From Arcobacter lacus (GTDB lineage: Bacteria; Campylobacterota; Campylobacteria; Campylobacterales; Arcobacteraceae): a DNA stretch of 64,000 nt. The stretch is from contig NZ_MUXF01000004.1 in NCBI RefSeq assembly GCF_003063295.1, forward strand, positions 1 to 64,000. The letters run 5' to 3'. The position numbers were made by a program, and so were the translations under genes. Below the pieces are notes generated by a model. It did not search any database, was not told the origin of the DNA, and saw nothing but the letters and a program-made list of their open reading frames with translations. Shown piece after piece: positions 29,086-45,069 of the stretch (position 1 is its first letter; the number at the start of each line of letters is the position of its first letter).

Positions 29086-29662
29086 CAGTAATTCCCATTT
29101 TTTCATAAAAGCCTTTTTTGAATTTAGCTTTTTTATCTATATCTTCTTCAGCTTTTTCTTTTATAAGAAAATACAAAAAATTTCCTTTAGCAACTTTTCC
29201 TATTATCATCAAAGATAGAAGAAAAACTAACATTACTATTGATGTATATGCAACAATTCTTTTTATTTTTTTATGACTTTTTGATTCAATTTTTAAAAAT
29301 ATATTATCTATTTGCTCTTTTAAATCTTTTAAAATATTTTTAGGAAGATTATTTATATCAAAAAATTCTACTCTTTCATCTTCTAAACCTTGAGCTTTTT
29401 TCAACTCTTCTTCTTCTATAACTGTAAAAAAATATGTTAAATCTACCCCACTTTGCAAAGGAATTGTTTCTATCTCACTCCAATTTGAAATTTCCAATCC
29501 AACTTCTTTTTGACATCCTCTTTTTATAGCTTCCAATGGTGTTTCATCTAAATCAACTTTCCCACCAACTCCATTATATAAGCCTTTTTGCCAATCAGGA
29601 TTGTTTTTTCTTAATAATAAAATTTTACTTCCATCAGTTATAATGCCAACAACATAATTCAT
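29075..29662 (-). CDS. Nudix-fold protein with eroded catalytic box and C-terminal membrane helix
   Basis: 195 aa from ATG 29662; a TTG at 29668 is an alternative. The Nudix domain spans about 1-125. The box keeps G34, E40, R48, E53, G55 and L56. Two of the three catalytic glutamates are replaced: G49 in the RE position and K52 in the first E of EE. A membrane helix (about 139-160) and a charged tail follow. It may therefore bind rather than hydrolyse nucleotides, or use a modified mechanism. The start sits at the end of a 32-base copy of the mnmG 3' end, suggesting that it once followed mnmG directly. Confidence 0.75.
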   Translation of the reverse strand: MNYVVGIITDGSKILLLRKNNPDWQKGLYNGVGGKVDLDETPLEAIKRGCQKEVGLEISNWSEIETIPLQSGVDLTYFFTVIEEEELKKAQGLEDERVEFFDINNLPKNILKDLKEQIDNIFLKIESKSHKKIKRIVAYTSIVMLVFLLSLMIIGKVAKGNFLYFLIKEKAEEDIDKKAKFKKGFYEKMGITEEN

Positions 29663-29691
29663 TATCAATCTTTATTGTTTTTTACAAATAT
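29660..29691. repeat. Copy of the mnmG 3' end next to the Nudix gene (left direct repeat)
   Basis: Matches 43187-43218 at 30 of 32 bases in the same orientation. It includes the last codons and TGA of mnmG plus the ATAATG that is the Nudix start. The first 18 bases (29660-29677) are identical. It lies 97 bases outside the Tn7-like left end. Confidence 0.85.
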
Positions 29692-29788
29692 TGTGAGATT
29701 CAGAATAATTTGATAATAGATTTTTCATAATATAAGTTCCTTTTTTAAAGCATTTTATAATAGTTTTTATTAAAATTTACTCCATTAA

Positions 29789-29832
29789 TGTAAAATAAAA
29801 ATTGATAATATGTAAAATGAAATAATTGTAAA
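29789..29832 (+). repeat. Left end of the Tn7-like element (TIR and sub-terminal repeat)
   Basis: 29789-29809 begins TGTAAAATAAAAA and matches, inverted, 43145-43165 with one mismatch in 21. A second TGTAAAAT starts at 29811, exactly 22 bases further in, and TGTAAATGC follows at 29827. Tandem ~22-base units that start with TGT are how TnsB sites are arranged in Tn7 ends. Confidence 0.75.
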
Positions 29833-29844
29833 TGCTATATACAA

Positions 29845-30447
29845 TTAAACTAGTAAATTTTCAATGGTATCTTTTAAATATTCTCTTTGTTTTTTTGTCA
29901 TATATAAGGGATGTTTAATATAAGGAAAATCATTTTTAAGAGGTATAAATACAGCTTTTTTTGAAAGCATTTCATAATTTTCTTCTATAATATCTTCCAA
30001 TTCAGTTGTTAGTTTTGTACCCCATGCAAGCCAAATAAAAGGAGATTCTAATACTATCTTATTTAATTTCTGAATATCATAAAACAGAAATTTTTTAACT
30101 TCAGAATTATTTTTAATTTTATTCAAGGTAATTATCGCTTCCTTTAGGTTTTCATTTCTTAAATTAAATAAATTAATTATATTGAAAAAACCGTTTACAT
30201 TTTGCCCATAATGAAAATAAATCATATTTTTTACACTATGCATTGTTTGATCTAAATGTACTTCAATATTATTAACAGTAATATTTTCGGAAATAAAAAC
30301 ATCCTTATCTATAGGTAAAGCACTTCCTGGATTAAGCATAAAAACTGTTCCTAAGCAAGTTGAATAGGTATCACCAAAGAACATTTTTGTATTGTATCGA
30401 AAAGAATAATCTTCAAGTTGTGTAAAAGTTGCAGTAACTTTTATCAT
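29845..30447 (-). CDS. DUF1643-like protein, third gene of the HD/radical SAM cassette
   Basis: 200 aa, cytoplasmic. It shares the DUF1643 pattern: a VFMLNPGSALPIDKD segment (about 35-49) corresponding to the family's MLNPS motif, FFNIINLFNLRNENLKEA in place of VVNLFALRATDP, and FIWLAWGTK for the WG motif. DUF1643 has no proven function and recurs in phage and accessory loci. Its ATG overlaps the radical SAM stop (ATGA), so it is translationally coupled. It ends 56 bases from the left transposon end. Confidence 0.65.
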   Translation of the reverse strand: MIKVTATFTQLEDYSFRYNTKMFFGDTYSTCLGTVFMLNPGSALPIDKDVFISENITVNNIEVHLDQTMHSVKNMIYFHYGQNVNGFFNIINLFNLRNENLKEAIITLNKIKNNSEVKKFLFYDIQKLNKIVLESPFIWLAWGTKLTTELEDIIEENYEMLSKKAVFIPLKNDFPYIKHPLYMTKKQREYLKDTIENLLV

Positions 30448-31253
30448 TGTGCTAAATACCTAAATTTTCTACCAGAAATTTCTTTATATGGAATAGAAAT
30501 ATAATATTCATCCATACCAGCAGAGTACTTACTTTTTAATATACCATCTACTTTTATATCAAAAAGTTTACTAACAATAATATCAATTAATTGTTTATAT
30601 TTGTTCGTCAATATACAAAGTGTTTGAATAAACTCATTTTCTTCTAACGGAGTCATAATTATGTGACTATTTTCTATTAATCGACCTTGCATAATTGCTT
30701 TTTGTATATTAATAGTTTTTATATTGTTTTCTATGCAATAAATAATAATATTCTCAAGATCTTTATAGTTACTTGAAAATGGCACGAAATTTATCTCTAC
30801 ATTAATTCCTGCATCTATAAAATTTGAAACAGAATTTTTCAATAAATATAATGATTTTTTTGTTTTAGTTATATTTTCATGAACATTTTCATTCATACTA
30901 TATATGCTAAAGGCGATTGTATCTAATCCATTAAACTTGAGACTATTGCAATAACTACTATCTACAGATATTAACCCTTTACTACCAAAAATAACTCCAG
31001 ATGAGTATATAGCAGTTTTAATATTAGCATTTTTAAGATTTTTGATCATATCTGGTAAATAAGGACTTAACAATGGTTCTCCACCACTCAAATAAACAAT
31101 TTCAAGTTTTTGAGAAATAAACGTTTGAACCAATCTTTCTGTTTCTCCTTTATTATAAAAAAGATGTTTATTCGGTAAAGCATTAGTACTACAATGTAAA
31201 CATTTTAGTGGACATTGATTTGATAGTTCAATACATACTGATTTAATATTCAT
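30444..31253 (-). CDS. Radical SAM protein of the HD/DUF1643 cassette
   Basis: 269 aa. N-terminal CX3CX2C cluster C14/C18/C21 (QCPLKCLHC) for the 4Fe-4S centre. SAM-binding GGEP is at 57-60 (YLSGGEPLLSP), followed by a TIM-barrel-like pattern up to about 200. No SPASM/Twitch Cys cluster is visible at the C-terminus. It resembles small organising radical SAM enzymes that modify peptides or nucleotides, but the substrate is unknown. It is coupled by 4-base ATGA overlaps to both neighbours. Confidence 0.8.
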   Translation of the reverse strand: MNIKSVCIELSNQCPLKCLHCSTNALPNKHLFYNKGETERLVQTFISQKLEIVYLSGGEPLLSPYLPDMIKNLKNANIKTAIYSSGVIFGSKGLISVDSSYCNSLKFNGLDTIAFSIYSMNENVHENITKTKKSLYLLKNSVSNFIDAGINVEINFVPFSSNYKDLENIIIYCIENNIKTINIQKAIMQGRLIENSHIIMTPLEENEFIQTLCILTNKYKQLIDIIVSKLFDIKVDGILKSKYSAGMDEYYISIPYKEISGRKFRYLAQ

Positions 31254-32809
31254 TTTATAGTTATCTCTTTAACTTCTCTAATTTTTTTTGAATCTTTAGG
31301 TGTTTTTTCTAAGAAAAATTTTTCTGTGTTTAAATTATCAAAAATTTCTTTTTTGATTGATTCAGAAAGGTCATCTAGACCAACAGTAAATAGTGCTTGT
31401 TCATCTTTTACTATTGTAAATTGAACAGATATAGTTTTACCTTTTTCTGTTGATAGTTTAAATCTTTTTTTGAAATTAAATGTTCTGTTTTGAGTATCAA
31501 GACCATCTCTAAAAATTGTTCTATAAGAAATAAATTGATATTCATAAATTTGTTGAATTATTTTTGCGAATTCTTTTTCTTGAAATTGTTTTTCAAATAT
31601 TTCTTCAATTTCAATATTATAAACATCGTTGTTTTTTTCAAATTTTTCAATAGTAATTTTTTTATCATTAAGTGTATGTGTATACATACTATTCCAGTCT
31701 CGTCTTCCCCATTCTTGTAAATCATCACAAAATGTTAATAAAAAAGAAAAAGTATTAGCATTTAAATAATAAATATCTTTTGTTGTATGAGAGCTTATTG
31801 CTCTTAGTATTTCTCGACGAATTAAATATTGTATTGCATCCATATAAGTAAATTTATAATTTACATTTGTACTAAATTCTGACTCCATAAAATAAAGTAG
31901 AATTTTATAAAGTATTATTGAACTAATCAATCCATGTGAATTCTTTTCGAAAGATTTGAGAAATTTCATATAGTATTTTGGTTGTATTATTGCCGTATAC
32001 AATTCATCTTTTTTATCATCATCTTTTTTGACTTTTTCGGGAACAATTTTAGAACTAGCCATTTCAATGATTATTTGATTCATTTTATCTTGCGTATCCG
32101 TAAATTTTATATCAGATAATATTTGTGGGTTGGCGACAAAGTATTTTAGCATGCCGGTTGTTTTATCTAATATTTTTTGTGCTTTTTCAAGAGGATATCC
32201 TAAATCATGACATAAAGAAATAAGTGTCCAAATACTAATTTTCTCAAGAGGAGTTAAAACAAACTTTTCATCACTATGTTTTACACCATCAAGACATAAA
32301 TTGTCAAAATATTCTTTTTGATCAATAAAAATATTCATACCAATCAACCATGTTTTAAAAACATGAACTATGTGATCTCTATAGTTAGGTGTTGCATAAA
32401 GTAGTTTTTCGTATTCTTGATAGCTTTTCATAAAATCTCGCAACTCTGATAATCCATAAGGGCTAGGATTCTTATTTTCAAATTCTAAATAAGGTTCTCT
32501 AAGATCACATATCCTCAATAAAACGAGAGATTTTCTTATTAGTAAAGTCCATATATCAAGGACTTTATCTATATTCTTATATAAAACATCAGGATCATTT
32601 TCTTTTATTAGTTTTTCAATTTCTTTTAATTCCTTAACTGATTCCTCATCTAAAGGATTGTTAACGATAAGTTTTTTTTTGAAGTCTATAAGTCCTTCTT
32701 CTTTGGTTGATCTTTTTTTTAAAATATTACATGATTTTTCAGTCCAATCTTCTATGTCATAATCAGTTATATTTTTAAGTAAACTTTTATCTGTAATTGT
32801 AGTTGCCAT
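31250..32809 (-). CDS. HD-domain phosphohydrolase-like protein, first gene of the cassette
   Basis: About 519 aa from ATG 32809, chosen because AGGGA lies upstream. ATG 32824 adds five residues. In 524-aa numbering the HD metal ligands are complete: H151/H154 (RDHIVHVF), H206-D207 (CHDLGYPLEKA), H297 (NSHGLISS), H346 (SSHTTKD) and D367/D368 (CDDLQEWGR). Such a full set suggests an active phosphohydrolase, either nucleotidase/dNTPase or cyclic-nucleotide type. N-terminal (1-110) and C-terminal (400-524) parts are not recognised. It leads a coupled HD-radical SAM-DUF1643 operon. Confidence 0.72.
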   Translation of the reverse strand: MATTITDKSLLKNITDYDIEDWTEKSCNILKKRSTKEEGLIDFKKKLIVNNPLDEESVKELKEIEKLIKENDPDVLYKNIDKVLDIWTLLIRKSLVLLRICDLREPYLEFENKNPSPYGLSELRDFMKSYQEYEKLLYATPNYRDHIVHVFKTWLIGMNIFIDQKEYFDNLCLDGVKHSDEKFVLTPLEKISIWTLISLCHDLGYPLEKAQKILDKTTGMLKYFVANPQILSDIKFTDTQDKMNQIIIEMASSKIVPEKVKKDDDKKDELYTAIIQPKYYMKFLKSFEKNSHGLISSIILYKILLYFMESEFSTNVNYKFTYMDAIQYLIRREILRAISSHTTKDIYYLNANTFSFLLTFCDDLQEWGRRDWNSMYTHTLNDKKITIEKFEKNNDVYNIEIEEIFEKQFQEKEFAKIIQQIYEYQFISYRTIFRDGLDTQNRTFNFKKRFKLSTEKGKTISVQFTIVKDEQALFTVGLDDLSESIKKEIFDNLNTEKFFLEKTPKDSKKIREVKEITIK

Positions 32810-32865
32810 TTTTTCCCTAATCATTAGTATAATATGAAGATGATTTAATATTATTAGCTATATAT

Positions 32866-32901
32866 TTTATTGTATGCATAAACCTCATATTATACAATAA
32901 A
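32866..32901. promoter_or_regulatory. Inverted repeat in the divergent region between HD cassette and tnsA
   Basis: TTTATTGTAT (32866-32875) and ATACAATAAA (32892-32901) are perfect 10-base arms with a 16-base loop. The right arm contains ACAATAAAG, which is also the core of TnsB sites in Tn7. It lies 57-92 bases upstream of the HD start and 148-183 upstream of tnsA. It could be an operator or an internal TnsB site. Confidence 0.5.
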
Positions 32902-33048
32902 GAATTTAATTTTCTATAATTATTTACAAATAACAAATTTTTTTATATTTAATATACTAATAAATTAATAATACGCAGAAATATTTCAGAATAAATATAA
33001 GTAAAATTGCTATACAATTAAAGTAATAAAATTATTTGGAAAATAACT

Positions 33049-33717
33049 ATGGAAGATTTGCCTATAAAGTTTTCTCAGCGTAAAATCAAGAAGAACTATC
33101 GTTCAATTACTGGATATTTCCCAAGTATTAAAAACAATACTTCAATTGGTTTTGAATCAAAACTTGAAAAAGCTCATTTCTTAGCTTTAGAATTTGACAA
33201 TAAAGTAATCTCCTATCAAGAACAACCTCAAATAGAAATTTTTTTTAATGGTAAAAATCAAATTTATAGTGCAGATTGTTATATTAAAAGAGTTAAAAAC
33301 TCATCAAAAAAAGATAGTATTGTTGAAGTTAAATACACAAATGAAATTGAAAAAAAGAAAAAATATTTTGAAAAAAGATTTGAATCTGCAAAAGTCTCTT
33401 CAAATAAATTAAATTTAGATTTTGAAGTTTATACTGAACAAAATCACAGTGAAATATATTTGGATAACTTAGATTTTCTTTATAGATATAAGTTATATCC
33501 CATTGAGAACAAATATGAAAATCAAATTATAAATTTAGTTAAGCAAAATAAAAGAGTAACTGCTTTTGAAATAGCAAATTTAATCTCACAAAATCTTAAA
33601 GATTATCCAACTATATCAAATTGTATTTGGGATTTAGTATGCAAAGAAAAGCTAAAAAGTGATTTACAATCAGCCAAGGTTACTATGAATTCATTTGTTG
33701 AGTTAGCTTATGAGTAA
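33049..33717 (+). CDS. tnsA: TnsA endonuclease subunit of the Tn7-like transposase
   Basis: 222 aa, close to the N-terminal catalytic plus C-terminal winged-helix size of TnsA. Restriction-endonuclease-like residues are E40 (SKLEKAHF), D76 (YSADCYI) and E93-x-K95 (VEVKYT, where Tn7 has QVK). TnsA cuts the non-transferred 5' strands so that the element moves by cut-and-paste. The gene starts a plus-strand operon, tnsA-tnsB-tnsC-tniQ, overlapping tnsB by 8 bases. A probable -10 (TATACAAT) lies about 35 bases upstream. Confidence 0.93.
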   Translation: MEDLPIKFSQRKIKKNYRSITGYFPSIKNNTSIGFESKLEKAHFLALEFDNKVISYQEQPQIEIFFNGKNQIYSADCYIKRVKNSSKKDSIVEVKYTNEIEKKKKYFEKRFESAKVSSNKLNLDFEVYTEQNHSEIYLDNLDFLYRYKLYPIENKYENQIINLVKQNKRVTAFEIANLISQNLKDYPTISNCIWDLVCKEKLKSDLQSAKVTMNSFVELAYE

Positions 33718-35596
33718 TGTAATAAAATTTGAAATAAACTCAAAAATATTTTATAAAGATTTAGAGTATGTGGTTAAAAGTTATCCTTCTTTTGATGAAG
33801 TGTTGATAAAAAGAGATGTCACTCCCTTTTATGAAAAAATAGTAAAAGTAAAAGATTTAATAACTGAACCAAAAAATATAAAAGAAGATATTAAAACTTT
33901 AGTTGATTTAGAACAAAAAGATTTTGATAAAGCAACTGAAAGATATGAAATCATCAAAACCTTGTTAGATAAAAAAGACAAAACTACAAAAGATGTTTTA
34001 AAAGTTGCAAAAAAACATAAAAAAGGAATTGCTACTATTTATCGTTGGTTAAATACTTATGAACAGTATGGAAATATAAGTTCTTTATCTTCAAAAAGAG
34101 AGTTTTGTGGTGCAAAAGGTAAAAGTAGATTAAATGAATCAGTCGATACTGTAATAAATAGTGTAATTGAAGAATACTATTTAAATAAACAAAAATATCC
34201 TTTACAAATGATTTATGAAGAGATACTTTATAAGTGTAAGAATATGGAACTAAAAGCTCCCACAAAAAATACAGTAAGAAGCAGAATTAACAACTTACAT
34301 CCAAAAATCATTGCAAAAAATAGGAAGGGATTAAAAGTTGATGAGACAAGAGGAATGCCAGGACATTTTCCTGAAGTAAAAATGCCTTTAGATATTATTC
34401 AAATTGATCATACAAAAGTTGATGTTATTTTGGTAGATGAGGAAACTAGAAAACCAATAGGAAGACCATTTATAACAGTTGCAATTGATGTTTTTAGCAG
34501 GATGATTTTTGGATTTTATATTTCTCTTGAAGCTCCAAGTTATTTTAGTGTTGGACAATGTTTGTTAAATGCCATCTTACCAAAAGATAATTTTATGAAA
34601 AAGAATGGAATTGAAGGTGAATGGGTGATTTATGGACTACCTAAAAAAGTCCATATGGACAATGGAAAAGATCTAAGGTCGGCTAGTTTACAAAACTTTT
34701 GTAAAGAATATAGAATCGAAGATATTTATCGCCCAGTTGCAAGACCTGCCTTTGGAGGAGCTATTGAAAGATTAATTGGTACTTGTATGAAAAAAGTTCA
34801 TCTCTTACCAGGTACTACTTTTTCAAGTATTCTTGAAAAAAGTACTTATGATTCAGAAGGAAATGCAATTATGACTATAGATGAATTAGAAAAATGGTAT
34901 TTAAACTTTGTAGTGAATATTTATCATAAAACAGAACATTCATCTTTAGGAATGAGTCCAGAAGAAAAGTTTTATCAAGGATTATATGGAGTAGGAGAAG
35001 ATAAATCAATTCCATTTTTACCTGTTGTTCCAGCTGATACTTTAAAACTTAGAATGGCTTTATTACCTGCTATAAATAGAACAGTTCAGAAAAATGGAAT
35101 AACAATTGACTATATCACTTATTTTAGTGAAACTCTTAGAAAATGGATAATTCCAACTCAATACAAAAAGCTAAAACCAGATTTAGAAAATAGTGTAGTT
35201 TGTAGACGAGACCCAAGAGATATCAGTAAACTTTATGTTTATGATGAAGATATAAAAGATTATATAACTGTTCCCTATGCAGATATACGAAGACCAAAAA
35301 TGAATCTCTCAGAATTAAGAAGTGCAATAGCAGATGCAAGATCAAAAATAAAGGGAAGAGAATTAGAACCTCATGATATTTTTGAAGCTCATGAGAGATT
35401 ACATTCTTATGTTGCTCAAGCAAAAAAAGAAAAAAAATCTATAAGAAGAAAAGATAGCTCTAAAAAACATCAAGAAAAAACTTTGCAAAATGATAAAGAA
35501 AGAATTGATTATAAAGAAAATCAACCTTTTTATGTTTCAAAAACTCCAAAAAATGAAGAAGATGATAATGATTATGAAATTTATCCAATAGGCTAA
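33710..35596 (+). CDS. tnsB: TnsB/TniA-type DDE transposase
   Basis: 628 aa. N-terminal helix-turn-helix region (about 95-200, GIATIYRWLNTYEQYG), an integrase core, and a C-terminal basic tail. The DDE triad is D233 (IIQIDHTKV), D317 (HMDNGKD) and E353 (GAIERLIG), with 35 residues between D and E. It joins transposon 3' ends to target DNA and binds the end repeats found at 29789 and 43165. The Lys-rich tail (about 575-628) matches where TnsB contacts TnsC. Confidence 0.94.
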   Translation: MSNVIKFEINSKIFYKDLEYVVKSYPSFDEVLIKRDVTPFYEKIVKVKDLITEPKNIKEDIKTLVDLEQKDFDKATERYEIIKTLLDKKDKTTKDVLKVAKKHKKGIATIYRWLNTYEQYGNISSLSSKREFCGAKGKSRLNESVDTVINSVIEEYYLNKQKYPLQMIYEEILYKCKNMELKAPTKNTVRSRINNLHPKIIAKNRKGLKVDETRGMPGHFPEVKMPLDIIQIDHTKVDVILVDEETRKPIGRPFITVAIDVFSRMIFGFYISLEAPSYFSVGQCLLNAILPKDNFMKKNGIEGEWVIYGLPKKVHMDNGKDLRSASLQNFCKEYRIEDIYRPVARPAFGGAIERLIGTCMKKVHLLPGTTFSSILEKSTYDSEGNAIMTIDELEKWYLNFVVNIYHKTEHSSLGMSPEEKFYQGLYGVGEDKSIPFLPVVPADTLKLRMALLPAINRTVQKNGITIDYITYFSETLRKWIIPTQYKKLKPDLENSVVCRRDPRDISKLYVYDEDIKDYITVPYADIRRPKMNLSELRSAIADARSKIKGRELEPHDIFEAHERLHSYVAQAKKEKKSIRRKDSSKKHQEKTLQNDKERIDYKENQPFYVSKTPKNEEDDNDYEIYPIG

Positions 35597-35599
35597 TTT

Positions 35600-36469
35600 A
35601 TGAATGATAGAAATTTAACGAAAGAAGCTTTTGAATATTTAAGTAAAAGTGATGAAGAAAGAATTATATATTGTAAAAAAGACCATTGGATAGGATATGG
35701 CTCAGCTGTAAAACTAATAGAAATTTTAGAAGATAAATTTTTAGACCCACCTCAAATGAGACATGAAGGATTACTAGTTTATGGTGATTCCAATAATGGT
35801 AAAACAGCAATTCTAAAAAGAATGTATGATTTACATAAAACAAAACTTGATTATGTCACAAAAGATGGTGAAGCAATTTATGAAATACCAATAATTTATT
35901 TCCAAGCACCAACAGTTCCTGATGAAAGTAGATTATATAGTCTTATTTTAGATGAGTTATGTGTACCTCAAAATAGGATTGAAAAAGTTGCCGTAAAAGC
36001 AAATCTTGCAAAACACTATTTAAATAAACTAGGCACAAGAATGATTTTAATTGATGAAATACATAGTTCATTAAGAGGAAATTTAAATAAACAAAGAACT
36101 TTTATAGATGATTTAAAACAGTTAAGTAATAGTTTATCTCTAACAATTGTTTTAGCAGGTACAAGAGAAGCATATTCAGCTTTATCAATAGGAAATGAAA
36201 CAAGTACAAGATTTCCTGCACTTGAGCTTCCTAGATGGAATAATGATAAAAAATTTAGATCATTTGTGGCAACTTATGAGAGATGTTTACCTCTAAAAAA
36301 AGCTTCAAATATGGCTGAAAATCATGAACTCATTAATAAGTTATTTTATAATTCTGAAGGCTTAATTGGGAAAACTGTAAATTTATTAAAAAAGGCTTCT
36401 ATAAAAGCAATTAAATCTAAAAGAGAATATATCACTGTTGATGATATAGAATATTTACCAAAGTTGTAA
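35600..36469 (+). CDS. tnsC: TnsC/TniB AAA ATPase regulator
   Basis: 289 aa, short like TniB rather than the 555 aa of Tn7 TnsC. Walker A is GDSNNGKT (62-69) and Walker B MILIDE (148-153), followed by IHSSLRG and a sensor region TIVLAGTREAY. It polymerises on DNA and bridges the target selector to TnsAB. It lies 3 bases after tnsB and 1 base before tniQ. The short form together with a TnsA resembles the Tn6022-like group more than canonical Tn7. Confidence 0.92.
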   Translation: MNDRNLTKEAFEYLSKSDEERIIYCKKDHWIGYGSAVKLIEILEDKFLDPPQMRHEGLLVYGDSNNGKTAILKRMYDLHKTKLDYVTKDGEAIYEIPIIYFQAPTVPDESRLYSLILDELCVPQNRIEKVAVKANLAKHYLNKLGTRMILIDEIHSSLRGNLNKQRTFIDDLKQLSNSLSLTIVLAGTREAYSALSIGNETSTRFPALELPRWNNDKKFRSFVATYERCLPLKKASNMAENHELINKLFYNSEGLIGKTVNLLKKASIKAIKSKREYITVDDIEYLPKL

Positions 36470-36470
36470 T

Positions 36471-37646
36471 ATGGCAAAGAAAAAAAGAAATAATGCTTGG
36501 GTTCAAGACTATTTCTTTTTAATAGTGCCACAACCTTTTAAAGATGAACTTTTAAGCTCTTGGCTTACAAGAGTTGCTATTGAACATAAGAGACAGCTTC
36601 CAATTTTTTTAACTCTTTTTGTAAAAAAAGAAGGAAATCAAATTTCAAGGATAGATATAGATTTTTTATATGATGAAAAATTATTTGAATCTTTATCAAA
36701 TAAAAGTAACTTGACTAAAGAAGATATTTTTAAAATGTCCTTGCGAAGTGAAGAAGGATACCTATTTTCTTGCAATAATTGTTTATATCCACCTCTACAA
36801 ATTAGAAAATTGACTGATAAAAGAACACATAATGGTTTGATGTATTGTCCAAAATGTTTAGTTGAAGATAAAATTCCATATTTTAGAAAAAAATGGAGAT
36901 ATGAATTTTATAATGCTTGCCCTAAACATAAAGTTTTTTTAACTGATAGATGTTGGAGATGTTATGAAAAAATTAATTTTTCAAAAATAAAACATTTTAA
37001 AGAAATTTGTATTTGTCATAAGTGTGAGAAAGATTTTAGAGAAAATCTTGTTATAAAAATAAATTCAAACTTTGAATATGGATTAAATGCAATTACTTGG
37101 TTTGAGAATGGTCTTAATGATGGCTATTTTATTATTGATGGTGAAAAAATAAATTCACTTTTTGTATTTGAAAGTTTTACCGCATTAAGAAGTTTAGTTG
37201 ATAGAAAAAATGACTTAAATTTAAAAGATTTTCCATTAATTGAAGAGTATAAAACTATTTGTAAAAAACTTGAAAAATACAATTCAAAAAAAGCCTTATC
37301 TATTCAAAAAGAGTTTTTATTAACTTCTTTAGTTTTTTATCTTTTTGAAAAATTTCCAGATAATTTTCAAAAATTTATTGTTGAAAATAAATTAACACAT
37401 AGAGATTTTATCCATGGGTTTAAAGATATACCTTTTTGGTATAAAAAAATGATTGATAAACTTATTCCAATAGAAAATAAAATAGGTAGAGAAATAAATG
37501 AAAATGAAGTTATTGGATCTATAAAATATTTAGAAAGTATTGGTGAACGAGTAAATATTATAAATGTTGCAGAAATTGTTGGTTGCCACCCTAGTATTCA
37601 TAAAGAATTTAATAAAATTTATAAAAAACTAAATAAAATACTATAA
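36471..37646 (+). CDS. tniQ: TniQ/TnsD-family target selection protein
   Basis: 391 aa. N-terminal TniQ segment (PQPFKDELLSSWLTRVAIEH, about 21-40). Several zinc-binding Cys pairs follow: CNNC, CPKC, CPKH, CWRC and CHKCEKDF (about 100-190). A helical C-terminal part of about 200 residues ends in a possible HTH (NVAEIVGCHPSIHKEFNKIY). TniQ/TnsD proteins recognise the attachment site and recruit TnsC. It is shorter than TnsD of Tn7 (508 aa) but longer than the TniQ of CRISPR-guided elements. The likely target is the mnmG 3' region next to the element. Confidence 0.9.
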   Translation: MAKKKRNNAWVQDYFFLIVPQPFKDELLSSWLTRVAIEHKRQLPIFLTLFVKKEGNQISRIDIDFLYDEKLFESLSNKSNLTKEDIFKMSLRSEEGYLFSCNNCLYPPLQIRKLTDKRTHNGLMYCPKCLVEDKIPYFRKKWRYEFYNACPKHKVFLTDRCWRCYEKINFSKIKHFKEICICHKCEKDFRENLVIKINSNFEYGLNAITWFENGLNDGYFIIDGEKINSLFVFESFTALRSLVDRKNDLNLKDFPLIEEYKTICKKLEKYNSKKALSIQKEFLLTSLVFYLFEKFPDNFQKFIVENKLTHRDFIHGFKDIPFWYKKMIDKLIPIENKIGREINENEVIGSIKYLESIGERVNIINVAEIVGCHPSIHKEFNKIYKKLNKIL

Positions 37647-37686
37647 TTATTATTTAATTATATTAATAATCTAAGGAATTCATAGA

Positions 37687-38817
37687 ATGATAGAAAGTCA
37701 AGAACATTTTTTAACAAATAAAAAACAACATACTGAAATTAAACATAAAATTTTTCATGATACATTTAGGTCCATATTAGGTATTTCTGCAAAGTTTTCC
37801 AAAAATAATAGCTTTACTTATCTTGATTTATATGCAGGACAAGGAAAATTTAATGATGATAGTTTTGGATCACCTATGCTTGCTTTAAATACAATATTAG
37901 AATCTGAAGTAATAAATTCTTTTCATCAATTGAAATGTTTTTTTTCAGAAATTGATAAAACTAGTTATTCTGAATTAGAAAAAAATATATCTTATTTAAA
38001 ATCAAGTAAAAAATTAAATCCTAAAGTGTCAACACACTTACATAATGGAAATTGGCACGAAAAAAACGATGATATAGAGAATCTTTTAAAATTTTCAAAA
38101 TGGGGATTTATTTTTGTTGATCCATTTTCAAATGAAGTTAATTTAAACAATTTAATTGAATTATTACAAAAATATGCAAAATTACAAGATTTTATGATTT
38201 TTATAAATTTTCAATCATTAAAAAGAATTATTGGAAGATATCCCGAACATGAAAATACAGCAAAATTTTTAGGAATTGAAAAAAAAGAATTGAAAAATTT
38301 ATTACTATCAAATGATTTAATTAATGAATGTATTAGAACTAGGTTCTCAGCAATATCAAAAGATTACATTATAAATATCTCTATTCCAACAACTAGAGAA
38401 GGGAAAATAGTTGAAAAAGACAACTTTCAACTATTATTAGGAACTAATAGTATTGGGGTATCAGATGCCTTTCTAAATTCTTATTTTGAATCTTTAGAAG
38501 AGTATAAAGAGAATTTTATAACAAGCTTATTTGATAATATTGGTGATGATATTATCAAAATAATAAAACATAAAAAAACGATTTCTTTAAATAATATAAT
38601 ACAAGAATTATATACAAATACCAACTCTTGGAAATATGCAGAAAAAAACAATATACCTACATCTGATAATATACACCGTTCTATTAATGATTTACTTAAA
38701 AGTAAGCGAATTAAAATAGTAAATATTCCAGATGAATTTCTAATTAAAAAAAATAAAACTATTCATAAGAAAGCTTATTCAAGAAATAAATACATGAGAG
38801 AGATTATACTAGAATAA
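37687..38817 (+). CDS. TcmP-like (three-Cys-motif partner) protein, copy 1
   Basis: 376 aa. TcmP pattern: a methyltransferase-like glycine loop YLDLYAGQGKF (about 45-55) followed by GSPMLAL, and FIFVDPFSNEVN (about 131-143). The C-terminal half has a winged-helix-like segment (NIPTSDNIHRSINDLLKSKRI). TcmP proteins are encoded beside DUF5131 three-Cys-motif proteins and are suspected of a nucleic-acid or defence role. It follows tniQ by 40 bases, with its own ribosome site AAGGAA. Its stop overlaps that of copy 2 by 9 bases, convergent. Confidence 0.78.
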   Translation: MIESQEHFLTNKKQHTEIKHKIFHDTFRSILGISAKFSKNNSFTYLDLYAGQGKFNDDSFGSPMLALNTILESEVINSFHQLKCFFSEIDKTSYSELEKNISYLKSSKKLNPKVSTHLHNGNWHEKNDDIENLLKFSKWGFIFVDPFSNEVNLNNLIELLQKYAKLQDFMIFINFQSLKRIIGRYPEHENTAKFLGIEKKELKNLLLSNDLINECIRTRFSAISKDYIINISIPTTREGKIVEKDNFQLLLGTNSIGVSDAFLNSYFESLEEYKENFITSLFDNIGDDIIKIIKHKKTISLNNIIQELYTNTNSWKYAEKNNIPTSDNIHRSINDLLKSKRIKIVNIPDEFLIKKNKTIHKKAYSRNKYMREIILE

Positions 38818-40056
38818 AAAGCTTATTTGCCTTTGCTTTGTCCATTTTATAATATCTTTATCTTGAATAGTAGTATATTTTCTTCTAATTTGACTATTAT
38901 CTTTTGAAATAATTTTTATTTCACCTGATTCTATAGAATTTGCCAATGATTCTCTTATTATATCTCTTGTAACTGGAGTTTCATTTGCTATTAAATTGTT
39001 TAAAGCATTGAAATCTAAACATTCTCTTTCTTGTATTATCTTTGGTAATTCACAACTCAATAGCTGAATACTTTTTTGTTTAGATAAGTCATCAAAAGTA
39101 TAATTAGAATGATTAAATAAATTATCTTTACAGTTAGAATTATATCCTAGAAACATGTTTAATCCTGCACCTGCATGATGAATAAAAGTATTTTGATTTT
39201 TCCAATGAATTTTCATCATTTCATCTCTTGCAATAGCATGAGTAGAAAAATGAAATAGCCAATAAGCACGAGAAGAAACATCACTTTTTATAAAAAATGG
39301 CGTATAAAATGGTGCATTTACTGTATTTACTATTGTTTTATATAATAAAGGTTGAATCTTTGTTCTTGAAAAATCATTATCTTCTTTTACATCATAAATT
39401 TGTTCACAATCTTCTTTTGATAATCCCATATTATAAAGAACTTGAGGTTTTTCACTTGAAAGATAATCAATTAAACTGTCAACAGAAAAAGTTAATATAA
39501 CTTCTGCTTTTGGTAATTGTTCAAAAATCTTTTTTATAACAGGGATAGGTGCATCAGCATAACCATATTGGTCAAGAATAAAAATACATCTATTAGCTCG
39601 GCTTCGATTTTTTATATTTTCTATAATTGCATCTAAATAAGAAATAAATTTGCCATTTAAACAATTTGTGTCTTCAGATAAATAACTATAATCATTTAAT
39701 GTTTTTTTTAAGAATAAAAATGTATTTTTATTCTTCTCAATAAAGGTATACTTAATATCAAAAATTACCGTTTTGCAATTACTTGCTTCTTTTTCAAAAT
39801 TAATGATTTTTTTTGTTTTTTCAATAGTTTCTTTTATTCTTATTGGGCTTCCAGTTGTTCCATCACTATAAATTCCACCACCGCAAAAGCCATCAATAAT
39901 ATCAAGTTTTAATGAACTTACTTTAAAACCTTTAGTCAAATATCTTAAATATATTTCTAAATAATTTTCAATAATATCTAGCTTTACCTTACTATGGTCT
40001 TCAATAGTTGGTAACTCTTCTCCTATACACCAATTATATTTATTAACTTTAGCCAA
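38809..40056 (-). CDS. TcmP-like (three-Cys-motif partner) protein, copy 2
   Basis: 415 aa. It has the TcmP signatures DGFCGGGIYSDGTTGSPI (about 55-72) and CIFILDQYGYADAPIPVI (about 152-169), and a C-terminal winged-helix-like part. It is only distantly similar to copy 1 in the motif regions. Its ATG overlaps the DUF5131 stop by 8 bases, so copy 2 and DUF5131 form the canonical pair while copy 1 is an extra member on the other strand. The molecular function is unproven. Confidence 0.82.
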   Translation of the reverse strand: MAKVNKYNWCIGEELPTIEDHSKVKLDIIENYLEIYLRYLTKGFKVSSLKLDIIDGFCGGGIYSDGTTGSPIRIKETIEKTKKIINFEKEASNCKTVIFDIKYTFIEKNKNTFLFLKKTLNDYSYLSEDTNCLNGKFISYLDAIIENIKNRSRANRCIFILDQYGYADAPIPVIKKIFEQLPKAEVILTFSVDSLIDYLSSEKPQVLYNMGLSKEDCEQIYDVKEDNDFSRTKIQPLLYKTIVNTVNAPFYTPFFIKSDVSSRAYWLFHFSTHAIARDEMMKIHWKNQNTFIHHAGAGLNMFLGYNSNCKDNLFNHSNYTFDDLSKQKSIQLLSCELPKIIQERECLDFNALNNLIANETPVTRDIIRESLANSIESGEIKIISKDNSQIRRKYTTIQDKDIIKWTKQRQISFLF

Positions 40057-40777
40057 ATATACCCTCTGTTATTTTTTTAGGCATTTCATCATATGTATTA
40101 TTATCTAAAAGTCTTCCTGCTTTCTTCTTATTTTTACCACCCCATTGTTTAAAAAAGAAAGGAACATCTTGAGTATTACATTGATTTTTTATATCTACTA
40201 CCCACTCTTTTAACATAGGCCTAGCCTTTGCTCCACTTTCACCACCAACAATTACCCAGTCAATATTTTTTAAATTTAAATTATTTATTGGAGTTAATAG
40301 TGGTTCTATAGAAAGAAACTTGATATAAGCACCTGATTCTCTCAAATAATTTATTCTATGTGTAACTTTTTGACTTTCAACTGTTGTACCTAACCATATA
40401 TTTTTAGTCCAAGTAATTAAATCATTAAGTTCTTTAATTCTTTCTGCTCGTTTAGTTAAAACTTGAAAAGTGTGCCAATGAGCTTTATTCATAACTTCAA
40501 ATAACTTTAGAATAAATTCATCAGGTACATCTTTATGAAATATATCACTCATAGAACATACAAATATTGTTTGAGGTTTTTTCATAAATAGTGGGTCTTC
40601 AATATTTTTATAATGCAATGTTAAATTAAATGCATTTTCATATTTTTTTAAACCCATATTTTTTAATCTGTTAGCCATTTTTTCAGCATAACAATTTGTA
40701 CAACCATCACTGTACTTAGTACACCCAGTTATTGGATTCCAAGTAGAACCAGTCCATTCAATTTTTGATTTACTCAT
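40049..40777 (-). CDS. DUF5131 (phage Gp37/Gp68-like) three-Cys-motif protein
   Basis: 242 aa. The N-terminal motif NPITGCTKYSDGCTNCYAE gives C19, C26 and C29 (CX6CX2C), the three-Cys motif. Other family landmarks are FVCSMSDIFH, FQVLTKRAERI, NIWLGTTVESQ and VIVGGESGAKARPM. It is distantly radical-SAM-like; activity is not established. It is encoded directly before TcmP copy 2 with an 8-base overlap, as in many phages and islands. Upstream is a 123-base gap to the IS200-derived open frame on the other strand. Confidence 0.88.
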   Translation of the reverse strand: MSKSKIEWTGSTWNPITGCTKYSDGCTNCYAEKMANRLKNMGLKKYENAFNLTLHYKNIEDPLFMKKPQTIFVCSMSDIFHKDVPDEFILKLFEVMNKAHWHTFQVLTKRAERIKELNDLITWTKNIWLGTTVESQKVTHRINYLRESGAYIKFLSIEPLLTPINNLNLKNIDWVIVGGESGAKARPMLKEWVVDIKNQCNTQDVPFFFKQWGGKNKKKAGRLLDNNTYDEMPKKITEGIFG

Positions 40778-40975
40778 AGTAGTCCCTTATCTAGTGATGA
40801 TTATATCTTTTCTAAATTAACCATACAAATTTATCTTTTTTTCCTAAATTACTGTCAATCAATTAATTACAAAAGTGTAAATTCTATTATAGTTATTTAT
40901 TTGACTTTTACAAAATTATCTATTATAATTCTATCAAAAAATCAATTAGTTGTCAAATTAGTAAAAAAGAATAAA

Positions 40976-41329
40976 ATGCCTAAAGATATAGATTATAAGA
41001 TATTTAAACACTCAAATTACAATTTAGTTTTTACATTACTTATTTCAACTCTAATGAATGAAGAAACTATTTCAAAAGATATAGAAATTGAACTCACAAA
41101 AATCATTTATAATATTTTTGAAAATTATAATAGTTGTGTTGTAAGAAATATACATATTAAAGATAATTCTACTTTAATAATATCTTTTGAATCAACACCT
41201 AATATTCTATTATCAAGGCTTATTAATAATTTCAAAACAGTTTCAAGTAGACTTATAAGAAGAAAATTTAATTTATATAACAATTTCTGGGAACAGAAAT
41301 ACTACTTATATACAAATAGCGTGATCTAA
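40976..41329 (+). CDS. IS200 (Y1) transposase-derived protein without catalytic residues
   Basis: 117 aa from ATG 40976. A TTG at 40901 would add 25 residues. The TnpA fold pattern is clear: KHSNYNLVF at the start, IHIKDNSTLIISFES where TnpA has the HUH motif in KDHVHLLIS, then LSRLINNFKTVSSRLIRR, FWEQKYYLYT. Both HUH histidines are gone (Asn and Thr), and the protein ends before the helix that bears the catalytic Tyr. It is therefore a domesticated or decayed Y1 protein that may still bind DNA. The frame is intact, arguing against simple decay. Nearest neighbours are DUF5131 and the TnsE-like gene. Confidence 0.65.
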   Translation: MPKDIDYKIFKHSNYNLVFTLLISTLMNEETISKDIEIELTKIIYNIFENYNSCVVRNIHIKDNSTLIISFESTPNILLSRLINNFKTVSSRLIRRKFNLYNNFWEQKYYLYTNSVI

Positions 41330-41420
41330 CTAGAATTAAATAATATTATAAAAAAGTAGTTGTTAGGGAAACTAAATCCATTATAAAAGATATAAATTTA
41401 ATATTATTTTAAAAAAGCAA

Positions 41421-43127
41421 TTAAACAATTTTTTCTAATAACCCAGTATACCAATTAGCAAGCTGGATTTCATTTAAATTTTCATTTCTCTCATGGTTCT
41501 TTTTAGTAAATTTAGGATTAGTTTTAGAATGTTTTTTTAATATATTATCTATTCCTATATCTTTTTTAAAATATAGATTCATAAAAAATTCAAAATGCTC
41601 AGTTTCAATTGGTTTATTAGAAATTATCACCCATGTAGAATTTCCAGAAGATGGATTATTTTCTAATTCTAATAATCCCACATAAGAATTTTCATATTTA
41701 AATGTTGTTGTTAAGTATTGTCTAGGTCTTTTTTTAATTTTACATTTCGGATTTACTTTTTCTTCACCATCATCATTTTCAAGTATATATTGAGGTAATT
41801 CTTTTTTCTCATTTAAATGAAAATCTTTTATGTCAGGACGTTCTTGCAAAAAATTTATATATTGATTGAAAACTACAAAATTATCTATTTCGGTTAAAGG
41901 CTTAGATGAAGATTCTTTTACAAACTCACTTGAAATAACAACTTTTCTAATAGTTTTATTCCCTTTAGAAGATGACTCAGTTAAACTTTGATCAGTTATA
42001 TCATCCGTTTGTTGCTCTTTATAAATTTTTAGTAAATCTTCTATAATATTTCTAGTTGAAGATTCTTCATCTATTGGAATATCTTTTAAACTACCACAAC
42101 TTTTTTTTCTATTCTTTTGATGACTAGTTTTTGTATTCTTTTTGCTTGCATGCGTTATTTTTAATACTTCAGATGTTTCATTAGGAATATCTTTTTCAAC
42201 TTTTGGAAGATTATCTAAATCTCCTAAATTTAAAATGACTTTATTCTTTTCTATAATTTTTGTTAGTTTTTCAAAACCTATATCTGAATAATCATTTATG
42301 ATTTCATGAATAAAGTAATACTTTTCATTTGTTTTTTTATTTGTAACAAGAGAACTTCTTGTATCAATTTGGAACTCTTCTTTTGTTGGGAAATTAAACT
42401 TCAAATGCATTTTATATATATCATCATCTAAATTATTTTCTTGCATATATTTTAGATAATTATGTATATAGTTAGATACATTATCAAACTCTCTTTTTGC
42501 AATCTCTTGACAAGCATATCTATGTATAAAAGCTGCATCTTCATCAGTTTTATATTTTGGTAAAACTATTTTTGCATCAGTTTTATTATTATCACACAAG
42601 ACATATAATTCTTCTAATGTAGAATCAAAAACGGCTTCTCTTAATTCTGAAAATCTAAAATAATAGTATATTCCAATTGCAAATTGAGGAATAATTATCT
42701 TAATATCGTCTTGTTCTACTACATAACAATTAATATTCTTTGCATCTGATAAATATTTATAACTCCAACCTAATAAAGTTCCAATACTTTTATCATCTAA
42801 AATATCTTTTAGTTTCTTTTCATTATTTCTATTAATAAATTTTGTATCAATTTTAAAACTTTTTTCTTCAACAGATTCATTCTTGTATTTATCTACTTTT
42901 TTACCATTTTGATAATACTCTAAAAATTGATAATGCGAAAACAATAATTCAGGTGATACATTATATTTAAATAGTTGTTTTTTAGATATATTTTCTATAA
43001 CGATTTCATAGTGGCTATTACTAAATTTATCTTCATCAAGTACTATTTTAAGGGGAAATAAGAACTGAAAAATATCATCAGGATTATCTTTCATAAACTC
43101 TGGAATGATATTTTTCTTAGTTGACAT
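41421..43127 (-). CDS. TnsE-like protein, distal and inverted relative to tnsABC
   Basis: 568 aa, close to the 538 aa of Tn7 TnsE. Segment order agrees with TnsE: a beta-rich N-terminus, IPQFAIGIYYYFRFSELREA (about 153-172), and a mid stretch IDTRSSLVTNKKTNEKYYF. A long low-complexity acidic/Ser linker follows (about 310-400), then a C-terminal domain from about 405. There FVVFNQYINFLQ, YVGLLELENN, WVIISNKPI and a final LANWYTGLLEKIV match the layout of the TnsE C-terminal domain. TnsE directs Tn7 to lagging strands of mobile plasmids. The gene starts only 18 bases inside the TIR and is transcribed away from mnmG. The assignment rests on pattern recall, not alignment. Confidence 0.58.
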   Translation of the reverse strand: MSTKKNIIPEFMKDNPDDIFQFLFPLKIVLDEDKFSNSHYEIVIENISKKQLFKYNVSPELLFSHYQFLEYYQNGKKVDKYKNESVEEKSFKIDTKFINRNNEKKLKDILDDKSIGTLLGWSYKYLSDAKNINCYVVEQDDIKIIIPQFAIGIYYYFRFSELREAVFDSTLEELYVLCDNNKTDAKIVLPKYKTDEDAAFIHRYACQEIAKREFDNVSNYIHNYLKYMQENNLDDDIYKMHLKFNFPTKEEFQIDTRSSLVTNKKTNEKYYFIHEIINDYSDIGFEKLTKIIEKNKVILNLGDLDNLPKVEKDIPNETSEVLKITHASKKNTKTSHQKNRKKSCGSLKDIPIDEESSTRNIIEDLLKIYKEQQTDDITDQSLTESSSKGNKTIRKVVISSEFVKESSSKPLTEIDNFVVFNQYINFLQERPDIKDFHLNEKKELPQYILENDDGEEKVNPKCKIKKRPRQYLTTTFKYENSYVGLLELENNPSSGNSTWVIISNKPIETEHFEFFMNLYFKKDIGIDNILKKHSKTNPKFTKKNHERNENLNEIQLANWYTGLLEKIV

Positions 43128-43144
43128 AGCTAGATTAATCTCTC

Positions 43145-43187
43145 ATTATCATTTTTTATTTTACATATTATCAATTTATATTGAACC
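43145..43187 (-). repeat. Right end of the Tn7-like element (TIR and possible outer unit)
   Basis: 43145-43165 on the minus strand begins TGTAAAATAAAAA and matches the left TIR in 20 of 21. The 22 bases outside it (43166-43187) match the left terminal unit in 18 of 22, but start GGT instead of TGT. Either the true end is 43165, or it is 43187 with a mutated first base. Confidence 0.7.
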
Positions 43188-43218
43188 ATTATCAATCTTT
43201 ATTGCTTTTGACAAATAT
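43187..43218. repeat. mnmG 3' end, right copy of the direct repeat
   Basis: Covers the last codons and stop of the intact mnmG and 30 of 32 bases are repeated at 29660-29691. This is the presumed attachment region for the island. Confidence 0.85.
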
Positions 43219-45069
43219 ATTTAAGTTCAAATGTATGATATCCAAAGCTGCAGGTGTAATACCAGATATGAGACTAGCATTGAAAATTGTAGGCGGTCTA
43301 TGTTTTTCAAGCTTTTCTACAACTTCATTTGAAAGACCAGGAAGTCCTTTATAACTAAAATCTTCTGGAATAGTTGCTTTTAACATTTTTTTCATTTTTT
43401 CTATTTGTTTTTGCTGTTTTTGTATATATCTATAATATTTTGCTTCAATAATTATCTGTTCTTTCAAATAATTATCAAGATGTGCAAAGCTTGGAACAAG
43501 TTTTTCAAATTTGAAAATATCAATACTATTTCTTCCAATCAAATCTACAAGTAAAACTCTATCATTGATTTTTTCTTCACCAATACTTTCAAGAAGTTCC
43601 AATGTTTCTTTTTTAGAAGTCATCCATTCATTTGCCATAAATTCAATAGCTTCTTCCAATGTTTTTCTTTTGTTTTCAACTTTTTTTATAGTTTCATCAT
43701 CTATTAATCCAAGATTATATCCATATTGAGATAATCTTAAATCAGCATTTTCTTCTCTTAAAAGAAGTCTATATTCAGCCCTACTAGTAAACATTCTATA
43801 TGGTTCATTTGTACCTTTTGTTACTAAATCATCAATTAAAACTCCTAGATAAGCTTCATCACGTCTAAGAATAAATGGTTCTTTTTCATCAATTGCAAGT
43901 GCAGCATTAATTCCTGCTATTAATCCTTGAGATGCTGCTTCTTCATAACCTGTTGTAGCATTGATTTGTCCAGCATGATATAGATTTTTTACTTTTTTTG
44001 TTTCAAGTGTATGTTTTAATTCAGTTGGATCAACATAGTCATATTCAATAGCATATCCATATCTGATTATTCTTGCATTTTCCAAACCTTTTACAGAATG
44101 AATCATTTGTTTTTGAACATCAATTGGAAGAGAGCTTGACATACCATTTATATAGTATTCTGTACACATTGCAGTTTGTGGTTCTAAGAATAATTGATGT
44201 CTATCTCGTTCAGCAAATCTATTTACTTTATCTTCAATACTTGGACAATATCTTGGTCCCAATCCTTCAATTTGACCAGTAAAAAGTGGCGCTCTATAAA
44301 AGTTTGAAGAGATTATTTCGTGAGTTTTTTCATTTGTGTAAGTTATATAACAAGGGTATTGAGTTGGTGAGAATGTTGATTTATCTGTTCTAAATGAAAA
44401 TGGAGCAGGATTTACATCACCTCCGTGCATATCCATTACTGAAAAATCAATAGAGTTAGCATCAAGACGAGAAGGTGTTCCTGTTTTTAATCTTCCAACT
44501 CTTAAACCTAACTCTTTTAGTTGAGTTGATAAAGTAGTTGATGGTAATTCCCAAGCACGACCAGCTTCATATTTATTTTCACCAATATGAACAAGCCCTC
44601 TCATAAATGTACCTGTTGTTAAAATAACTTTTTTTGCAATAAATTCTTCAGTTAATTTTGTTTTTACTCCACAAACTTCATTACCATTTTTTACTAAAAG
44701 TGCTGTTACTTCATCTTGATAAACTTCTAAATTAGGAGTATTATGACAAACTTTTCTCATATACTCTCTATATCTATCCATATCAATTTGAGCACGACTA
44801 CCTTGAACAGCAGCACCCTTAGAAGCATTTAATATTCTAAATTGAATACCTGCATTATCAGTACAAAGTCCCATTTCTCCACCGATAGCATCAAGTTCTC
44901 TAACTAAATGCCCTTTTGCTAAACCTCCAATTGCAGGGTTGCAACTTGCTGCTCCTATTTGCTCTACTAACATCGTAATTAATAGAGTTTTTTTACCCAT
45001 TCTTGCACTTGCTAATGATGCTTCAATACCTGCATGACCACCACCAACAACAATTACATCGTAATTCAT
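43192..45069 (-). CDS. mnmG: tRNA uridine-5-carboxymethylaminomethyl modification enzyme MnmG (GidA)
   Basis: 625 aa, full length. FAD-binding start [19 protein letters not shown], then [31 protein letters not shown], and the [24 protein letters not shown] motif. The C-terminal helical domain ends [20 protein letters not shown]. With MnmE it modifies the wobble uridine of tRNA. The 3' end lies directly against the Tn7-like element but is uninterrupted. Divergent from ribE. Confidence 0.96.

Follow-up and report, generated by a model that had tools for sequence, protein, structure and literature searches.

A stretch of 64,000 nucleotides from Arcobacter lacus (contig NZ_MUXF01000004.1, positions 1 to 64,000), called the window below, contains a Tn7-like element in which one open reading frame lies alone beyond the cargo. 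From its length and segment order, the first-pass annotation had taken the product for a TnsE-like protein, possibly a transferable targeting module, in an arrangement differing from the tnsABCDE order. It had proposed profile comparison and structure prediction as checks, with a fold unrelated to TnsE as the outcome that would count against the idea. The locus raises two questions: is the protein TnsE, and what would it do at this end of the element?

The features of the element are collected in Table 1. ORF calls and domain matches confirmed the arrangement described in the first pass: an intact frame, with an ATG start and no internal stops, cut off from tnsABC by cargo and on the opposite strand. 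The gene is carried in an element together with TnsA, TnsB, TnsC and a TniQ/TnsD protein. The element is bounded by inverted ends, each with more than one TnsB-type repeat, and by a 5-bp target-site duplication (TSD); it is inserted within the last codons of mnmG. Its left terminus reads TGTGAGATTC... and its right terminus ...TTTTGACA; the left end, which the pattern used in the terminus search missed, was read directly from the sequence. A specific 17-mer of the TnsB-type repeat, allowing up to two mismatches, matched four times in the window, where 0.2 matches were expected; one of the four is a relic copy at 29661, beyond the element. The degenerate 17-mer, allowing up to three mismatches, matched 47 times against 24 expected. 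The tnsE frame is the first gene inside the mnmG-proximal end, with its ATG 17 bp inside the innermost of the three TnsB-type repeats and 86 bp from the terminus, which was read by eye. The earlier placement of the start, 18 bases inside the terminal inverted repeat, had to be revised in this respect.

Table 1. Features of the Tn7-like element and its surroundings in the window.
Feature	Position	Strand	Basis
Whole Tn7-like element, 13,522 bp, TGTG... to ...GACA	29692..43213	.	Termini and TSD by eye; terminal repeats
TSD AATAT, left copy	29687..29691	.	Read by eye
TSD AATAT, right copy	43214..43218	.	Read by eye
Probable remnant of an older right end, 5 bp (AATAT) from the present element	29660..29686	+	
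TnsB-type repeats, two (29701, 29793), widely spaced, L-like end, inverted	29701..29809	-	
Cargo on the far side of tnsA: DUF1643, a radical SAM protein with a weak match to a viperin model, an unknown 524-aa protein	29845..32824	-	
tnsA (PF08722)	33049..33717	+	Pfam
tnsB (Mu-transpos_C; rve slightly under its cut-off)	33710..35596	+	Pfam
tnsC (TniB, PF05621)	35600..36469	+	Pfam
tniQ, 391 aa (PF06527), putative mnmG homing selector	36471..37646	+	Pfam; tracks homing site
Cargo: TcmP-like gene pair plus DUF5131 gene, candidate defence (PADLOC PDC-M30/M41)	37687..40777	.	
IS200-like (Y1) transposase, cargo	40901..41329	+	
tnsE homologue (P0001), 568 aa	41421..43127	-	ORF call; TnsE via hhalign and fold
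TnsB-type repeats, three (43145, 43167, 43188), mnmG-proximal dense R-like end	43145..43204	+	
mnmG (gidA), homing gene; last codons and stop inside element end	43192..45069	-	

Some further observations concern the element and its surroundings. Just outside the left end, positions 29660–29691 hold another sequence that resembles a right end and carries the same AATAT; it is probably what remains of a previous element at the mnmG site. In G005, a genome of the same genus, an element end and the first 35 TnsE codons remain beside mnmG. The TcmP-like pair with DUF5131 matches candidate defence systems in PADLOC and is probable anti-phage cargo.

Taken alone, the window protein (P0001) gave no match in searches of Pfam, NCBIfam and PDB sequences. 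The Pfam model for the TnsE C-terminal domain (PF18623, TnsE_C) gave it no score, and a PF18623 scan of its own genome was empty, as were the controls. Relatives gathered from whole genomes were aligned into a family of 22 sequences including P0001. PF18623 matched six of the 22 at E-values up to 5 (best 3.7e-4), and the three members whose bit scores were read all fell under the TnsE_C cut-off of 26.7. When the family was compared by hhalign with a canonical set of nine TnsE proteins from plasmids (the R721 copy and eight others), it matched over 421 columns spanning both halves of the protein, with a probability of 97.1, an E-value of 5.1e-11 and 12% identity; against one canonical TnsE alone, the same profile reached a probability of 0.8. 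Since the family profile does match canonical TnsE, the single-sequence misses were not read as absence, and a selector of this kind can escape single-sequence annotation.

A bridging TnsE lineage within the Campylobacterota lies between the two groups. Two of its three scanned members score above the TnsE_C cut-off (33.9 and 28.9) and the third, L103, below it (23.7); the P0001-family profile matched L103 with a probability of 99.0 and an E-value of 3.6e-18. The gene upstream is comM in two of the three. Conserved letters also pair up, with E487/E489, S497-T498, H545 and W559 of P0001 corresponding to E450/D452, S461-T462, H510 and W527 of TnsE. At the motif near P121 of Tn7 TnsE, which we take to be the sliding-clamp contact, the proline is kept here and the E-L-A-R letters are not.

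The predicted structure of whole P0001 (pLDDT 78) has the C-terminal domain fold seen in 5d16, 5d17 and 9d5l. In a Foldseek search with this model, the first seven rows were all TnsE C-terminal domains, at E-values of 4.6e-3 to 2.8e-2, none below 0.001. VIA-align 2 gave a Z-score of 13.8 to DNA-bound TnsE (9d5l; rmsd 3.2, 145 residues aligned) and of 12.5 to the TnsE C-terminal domain (5d17), against 5.7 for the next unrelated chain, so the unrelated fold that would have counted against the proposal was not what we found. The N-terminal half modelled by itself had a pLDDT of 92.5, and its best Foldseek rows were unrelated proteins at E-values of 0.21 and worse. Its VIA rows were all weak (Z 2.1–3.3), and 10 of the 14 were single-stranded DNA-binding proteins by title (SsbA, RPA, Teb1, LEF-3); PriB (4fdb) aligned to the whole P0001 model at Z 3.6. 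The available text of PMC10293859 describes PriB-like domains in TnsE, and these weak matches of the predicted model may be compatible with such domains, which they fit but do not prove. On the basis of the profile comparison, the bridging lineage and the fold, the window protein is a real, intact and divergent TnsE, as the first pass had supposed.

The position of the gene is not peculiar to the window. Among 36 merged loci, 24 had tnsB, tnsC and tniQ together with tnsE, whether full or broken, and G210 was added to make 25. The other 11 (G011, G005, G203, G192 twice, G284, G297, G068, G149, G110 and G259) were left out because they lacked a tnsE match or a core within the searched DNA, or had an incomplete set or a set in two blocks; additional flanking DNA likewise yielded no core genes for G011, G149 and G297. 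tnsE faces the core (tnsB, tnsC, tniQ) in 24 of the 25 loci, the exception being G156 with tnsE and core on one strand, and an inverted tnsE at the far end is therefore the normal anatomy of this group. The departure from tnsABCDE order holds against Tn7; beyond that it is no novelty, being the norm in the group and having a precedent in Tn6022, where tnsE is described as near one end, on the opposite strand and far from the core (available text of PMC10293859).

We then looked at where these elements reside. TnsE-profile matches were found in 40 of the 397 sampled genomes of the phylum; by family, in overlapping samples, they occurred in 24/104 genomes of the window's family and in 35/228 and 6/44 of two others. 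A flanking locus was retrieved for 73 TnsE places, a count that includes partial copies and excludes matches with no locus. The gene upstream of tnsE on the same strand was mnmG in 35, argJ in 13, dprA in 9 and comM in 4, which makes 61 of the 73. ArgJ and DprA, like the sulfate transporter mentioned below, were named by their Pfam domains, and comM by Mg-chelatase/ChlI domains. For 55 of these 61, no more than 153 bp separates the matched ends of the homing gene and tnsE; in the remaining six the TnsE match begins inside the protein. The other 12 places are G000 C3, G228 C49, the flhF copy of G468, two G192 fragments, G476, G259, G367, G513, G688, G650 and G592. For G688 and G650 the upstream sequence was too short or absent from the test, and in G592 the element sits after a sulfate-permease gene. 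Matches covering less than 85% of the TnsE query make up 32 of the 73, a number that is not a count of broken genes because relics, broken genes, contig ends and full-length distant members are mixed in it.

Elements at mnmG end at nearly the same position in its last codons, giving the gene new terminal codons (21 mnmG-adjacent sequences, compared by eye; the 22nd row of that comparison, G228 C49, is not adjacent to mnmG). Matching 5-bp TSDs at both ends were seen in nine more elements picked by eye from the terminus search (G017, G010, G007, G020, G036, G222, G156, G499 and G228 C49). Terminus candidates for G051, G188, G284 and G160 were set aside by eye as chance, as were additional candidates for G017, G007 and G499.

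Several other loci deserve mention. TnsE elements lie inside dprA in several of L024, L029, L089, L096, L099, L183 and L184, and others lie in comM, so that two natural-transformation genes are repeated homing targets. In G192 (L035, L036, L095), fragments from the N-terminal part of tnsE lie roughly 16 and 26 kb behind the mnmG-proximal copy, perhaps from repeated insertion at one site. A 4.2-kb contig labelled as uncultured Bacilli (L015) encodes a TnsE 75% identical to P0001 and is probably misbinned. The window's own genome has another Tn7-like element, distinct from the first and encoding a TnsE of its own (G000 C3, L046:12250-18534); a phosphoesterase gene directly precedes this tnsE, and no clear end was found beside it.

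Identity matrices were calculated for 22 elements; G011, G192, G203, G284, G476, G210 and the second G468 copy are among those left out, for lack of a usable gene, late retrieval or, for G468, an identical copy. The mnmG-type elements fall into two TnsB/TnsC lineages, with 42–48% identity in TnsB and 39–46% in TnsC between them. TnsE splits along the same two lineages, at 21–28% identity, and TniQ is 45–55% identical between them, compared with 23–31% to six elements at other sites. This fits a TniQ that follows the homing site and a TnsE that would follow the TnsB/TnsC core at depth, as a correlation among sequences to which unequal rates of change could contribute. Rank correlations of TnsE over all pairs (0.92 with TnsC, 0.90 with TnsB, 0.87 with TniQ) are no proof of such tracking, because the three values are similar.

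The reading that we favor, with a probability of roughly 0.8, is that the window encodes a divergent TnsE acting as a second target selector in an element where TnsA and TnsB would be the transposase and TnsC the regulator. We infer that TniQ would direct homing, with the 3' end of mnmG as its target, and that TnsE, by analogy with Tn7, would select replicating or transferring DNA. It may sense lagging-strand-type replication intermediates through putative N-terminal OB-like domains and its DNA-binding C-terminal domain and hand such a replication-type target on to TnsC, and the element could thereby move from mnmG to plasmids in transfer or to other mobile DNA. Tn7 TnsE is described in the available text of PMC5371812 as binding recessed-3'-end substrates and the sliding clamp and as inserting into plasmids undergoing transfer.

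Two copies away from homing sites bear on this proposal. G228 has an mnmG element on contig C71 and a second, different element of the mnmG family, with TSD CTATG, inserted in a mobile-element-like contig, C49 (28.5 kb), which carries a tyrosine integrase, a Lin1244-type protein and replication-like genes. The RepB-primase-like protein of C49 matches below the Pfam cut-off and has no relative on plasmids. A 315-residue protein with no Pfam match aligns over 62% of its length, at 29% identity, with ORFs on 2.4-kb Pseudomonas plasmids; its three plasmid relatives are on small Pseudomonas plasmids typed as non-mobilizable. Given these results for the two proteins, we do not call C49 a plasmid. 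In G468, a 17,627-bp element is present in two identical copies, of which the first follows argJ and the other, with TSD GTATG, lies inside a chromosomal SRP54-type GTPase gene, which we take to be flhF from this domain and the gene order. Both cases fit a second, non-homing pathway; TnsE as its driver is not proven, and TniQ-directed or untargeted insertion could also have caused them. Against a second selector stand the location of most copies at homing sites, the chromosomal location of the flhF copy, and the lack of relatives on 72,556 plasmids (four TnsE queries) and in viral contigs (one scan). A third candidate, G476 beside an efflux gene, was dropped as a plasmid-type jump, since its tnsE is broken and no matching TSD was seen.

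We considered whether TnsE might instead work with TniQ at the homing site, as a DNA-binding co-factor for mnmG comparable to TnsF for comM. The homing gene directly upstream of tnsE in 61 of the 73 places would agree with this, as would the short TniQ of the window (391 residues), since Faure et al. tie short TniQ proteins to extra selectors (available text of PMC10293859). However, at the same mnmG position the two TnsE lineages share only 21–28% identity while their TniQ proteins share 45–55%, so the site seems to follow TniQ and not TnsE, and tnsE keeps the same place in the element at unrelated sites. We consider such a co-factor unlikely, and TnsE as the mnmG homing factor itself was set aside.

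It is less likely still that tnsE is a passenger or decaying gene with no present targeting role. Broken copies are indeed common, with stops or frameshifts in G203, G192, G284 and G476, and many places retain just the first 35–120 TnsE residues; relic elements, however, are expected to hold broken copies. Pairwise dN/dS was 0.16–0.32 in all 15 pairs of six tnsE homologues, which shows that the frame evolves under purifying selection, and the position of tnsE is fixed while the cargo varies. That P0001 is some other DNA-binding protein with a similar C-terminal fold is very improbable. It would explain why P0001 has no direct Pfam match and its N-terminal half only weak structural matches, but not the profile match over both halves, the bridging lineage partly above the Pfam cut-off or the corresponding conserved letters.

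Whether the second selector proposed here is also transferable was addressed by comparing TnsE with TnsB. The TnsB of G017 is 97% identical to that of G020 and 65% to that of the window; its TnsE shares 83–86% identity with those of the window, G010 and G007, compared with 56% for that of G020. The TnsB tree joins G017 and G020 (100/100) and rejects a group of the window, G017, G010 and G007 (p-AU 1.6e-10), whereas TnsE rejects G017 with G020 (p-AU 1.8e-34) and does not reject the four-member group (p-AU 0.25). The groups were picked after the identity table had been seen, which makes these p values optimistic. In the best TnsE tree, G019 stands beside the window. The end of G017 is 87% identical to that of G020, compared with 79% for the window and 80% for G010, over an end that measures no more than some 86 bp. 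The opening 150 bp of its tnsE match G010 at 93% identity and G020 at 73%. From these values, an exchange break seems to fall after the TnsB-binding end and before the start of tnsE. The end of G011 does not discriminate (78% and 79%).

TnsC is 90–96% identical among the six Aliarcobacter-group elements compared. It is conceivable, at somewhat less than even odds, that tnsE is an exchangeable cassette in the window's genus, swapped across differing TnsB proteins (65%) and ends while TnsC is kept. The "transferable targeting module" of the first pass holds to this extent, between close elements; at depth, TnsE follows TnsB and TnsC. From their sequences, these natural chimaeras suggest that TnsE may need a matching TnsC and not matching TnsAB, and if true they offer a route to the TnsE–TnsC contact. 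TnsE is called the sole known non-TniQ selector family in the available part of a 2024 review (Faure et al.). A divergent lineage in another phylum, residing at mnmG, argJ and dprA, natural tnsE swaps and one element in mobile-type DNA provide material for mapping its contacts.

Among the matches listed in the literature search, we recognized no published description of TnsE elements at mnmG, argJ or dprA. The available text of PMC10293859 does not mention mnmG, gidA, Campylobacter or Arcobacter, that of PMC11406308 has no mnm and no Campylobacter, and that of PMC8649781 no mnmG, dprA or Campylobacter. What is new is apparently the host group, the homing sites and the evidence of separate tnsE exchange, the layout being already known from Tn6022.

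Compared with known systems, the window protein shares with the Tn7 TnsE set (R721 and eight others) its length class (568 versus 538 residues), the C-terminal fold, homology over 421 columns and an element with TnsABC and a TniQ/TnsD protein, and differs in the 12% identity. In R721, tnsE follows tnsABCD on one strand, whereas in the window it stands alone beyond the cargo and is convergent. The likeness to Tn6022, the comM-targeting AbaR backbone, is one of layout, as described in the available text of PMC10293859. There, TnsF is in an operon with TniQ for comM, while in the window TcmP-like genes directly follow tniQ and the site is mnmG. Within the Campylobacterota, elements at comM, dprA and argJ match the same TnsE profile and have tnsE adjoining the homing gene, and differ from the window in the homing gene itself and in a TniQ with 23–31% identity to the mnmG type in the six compared.
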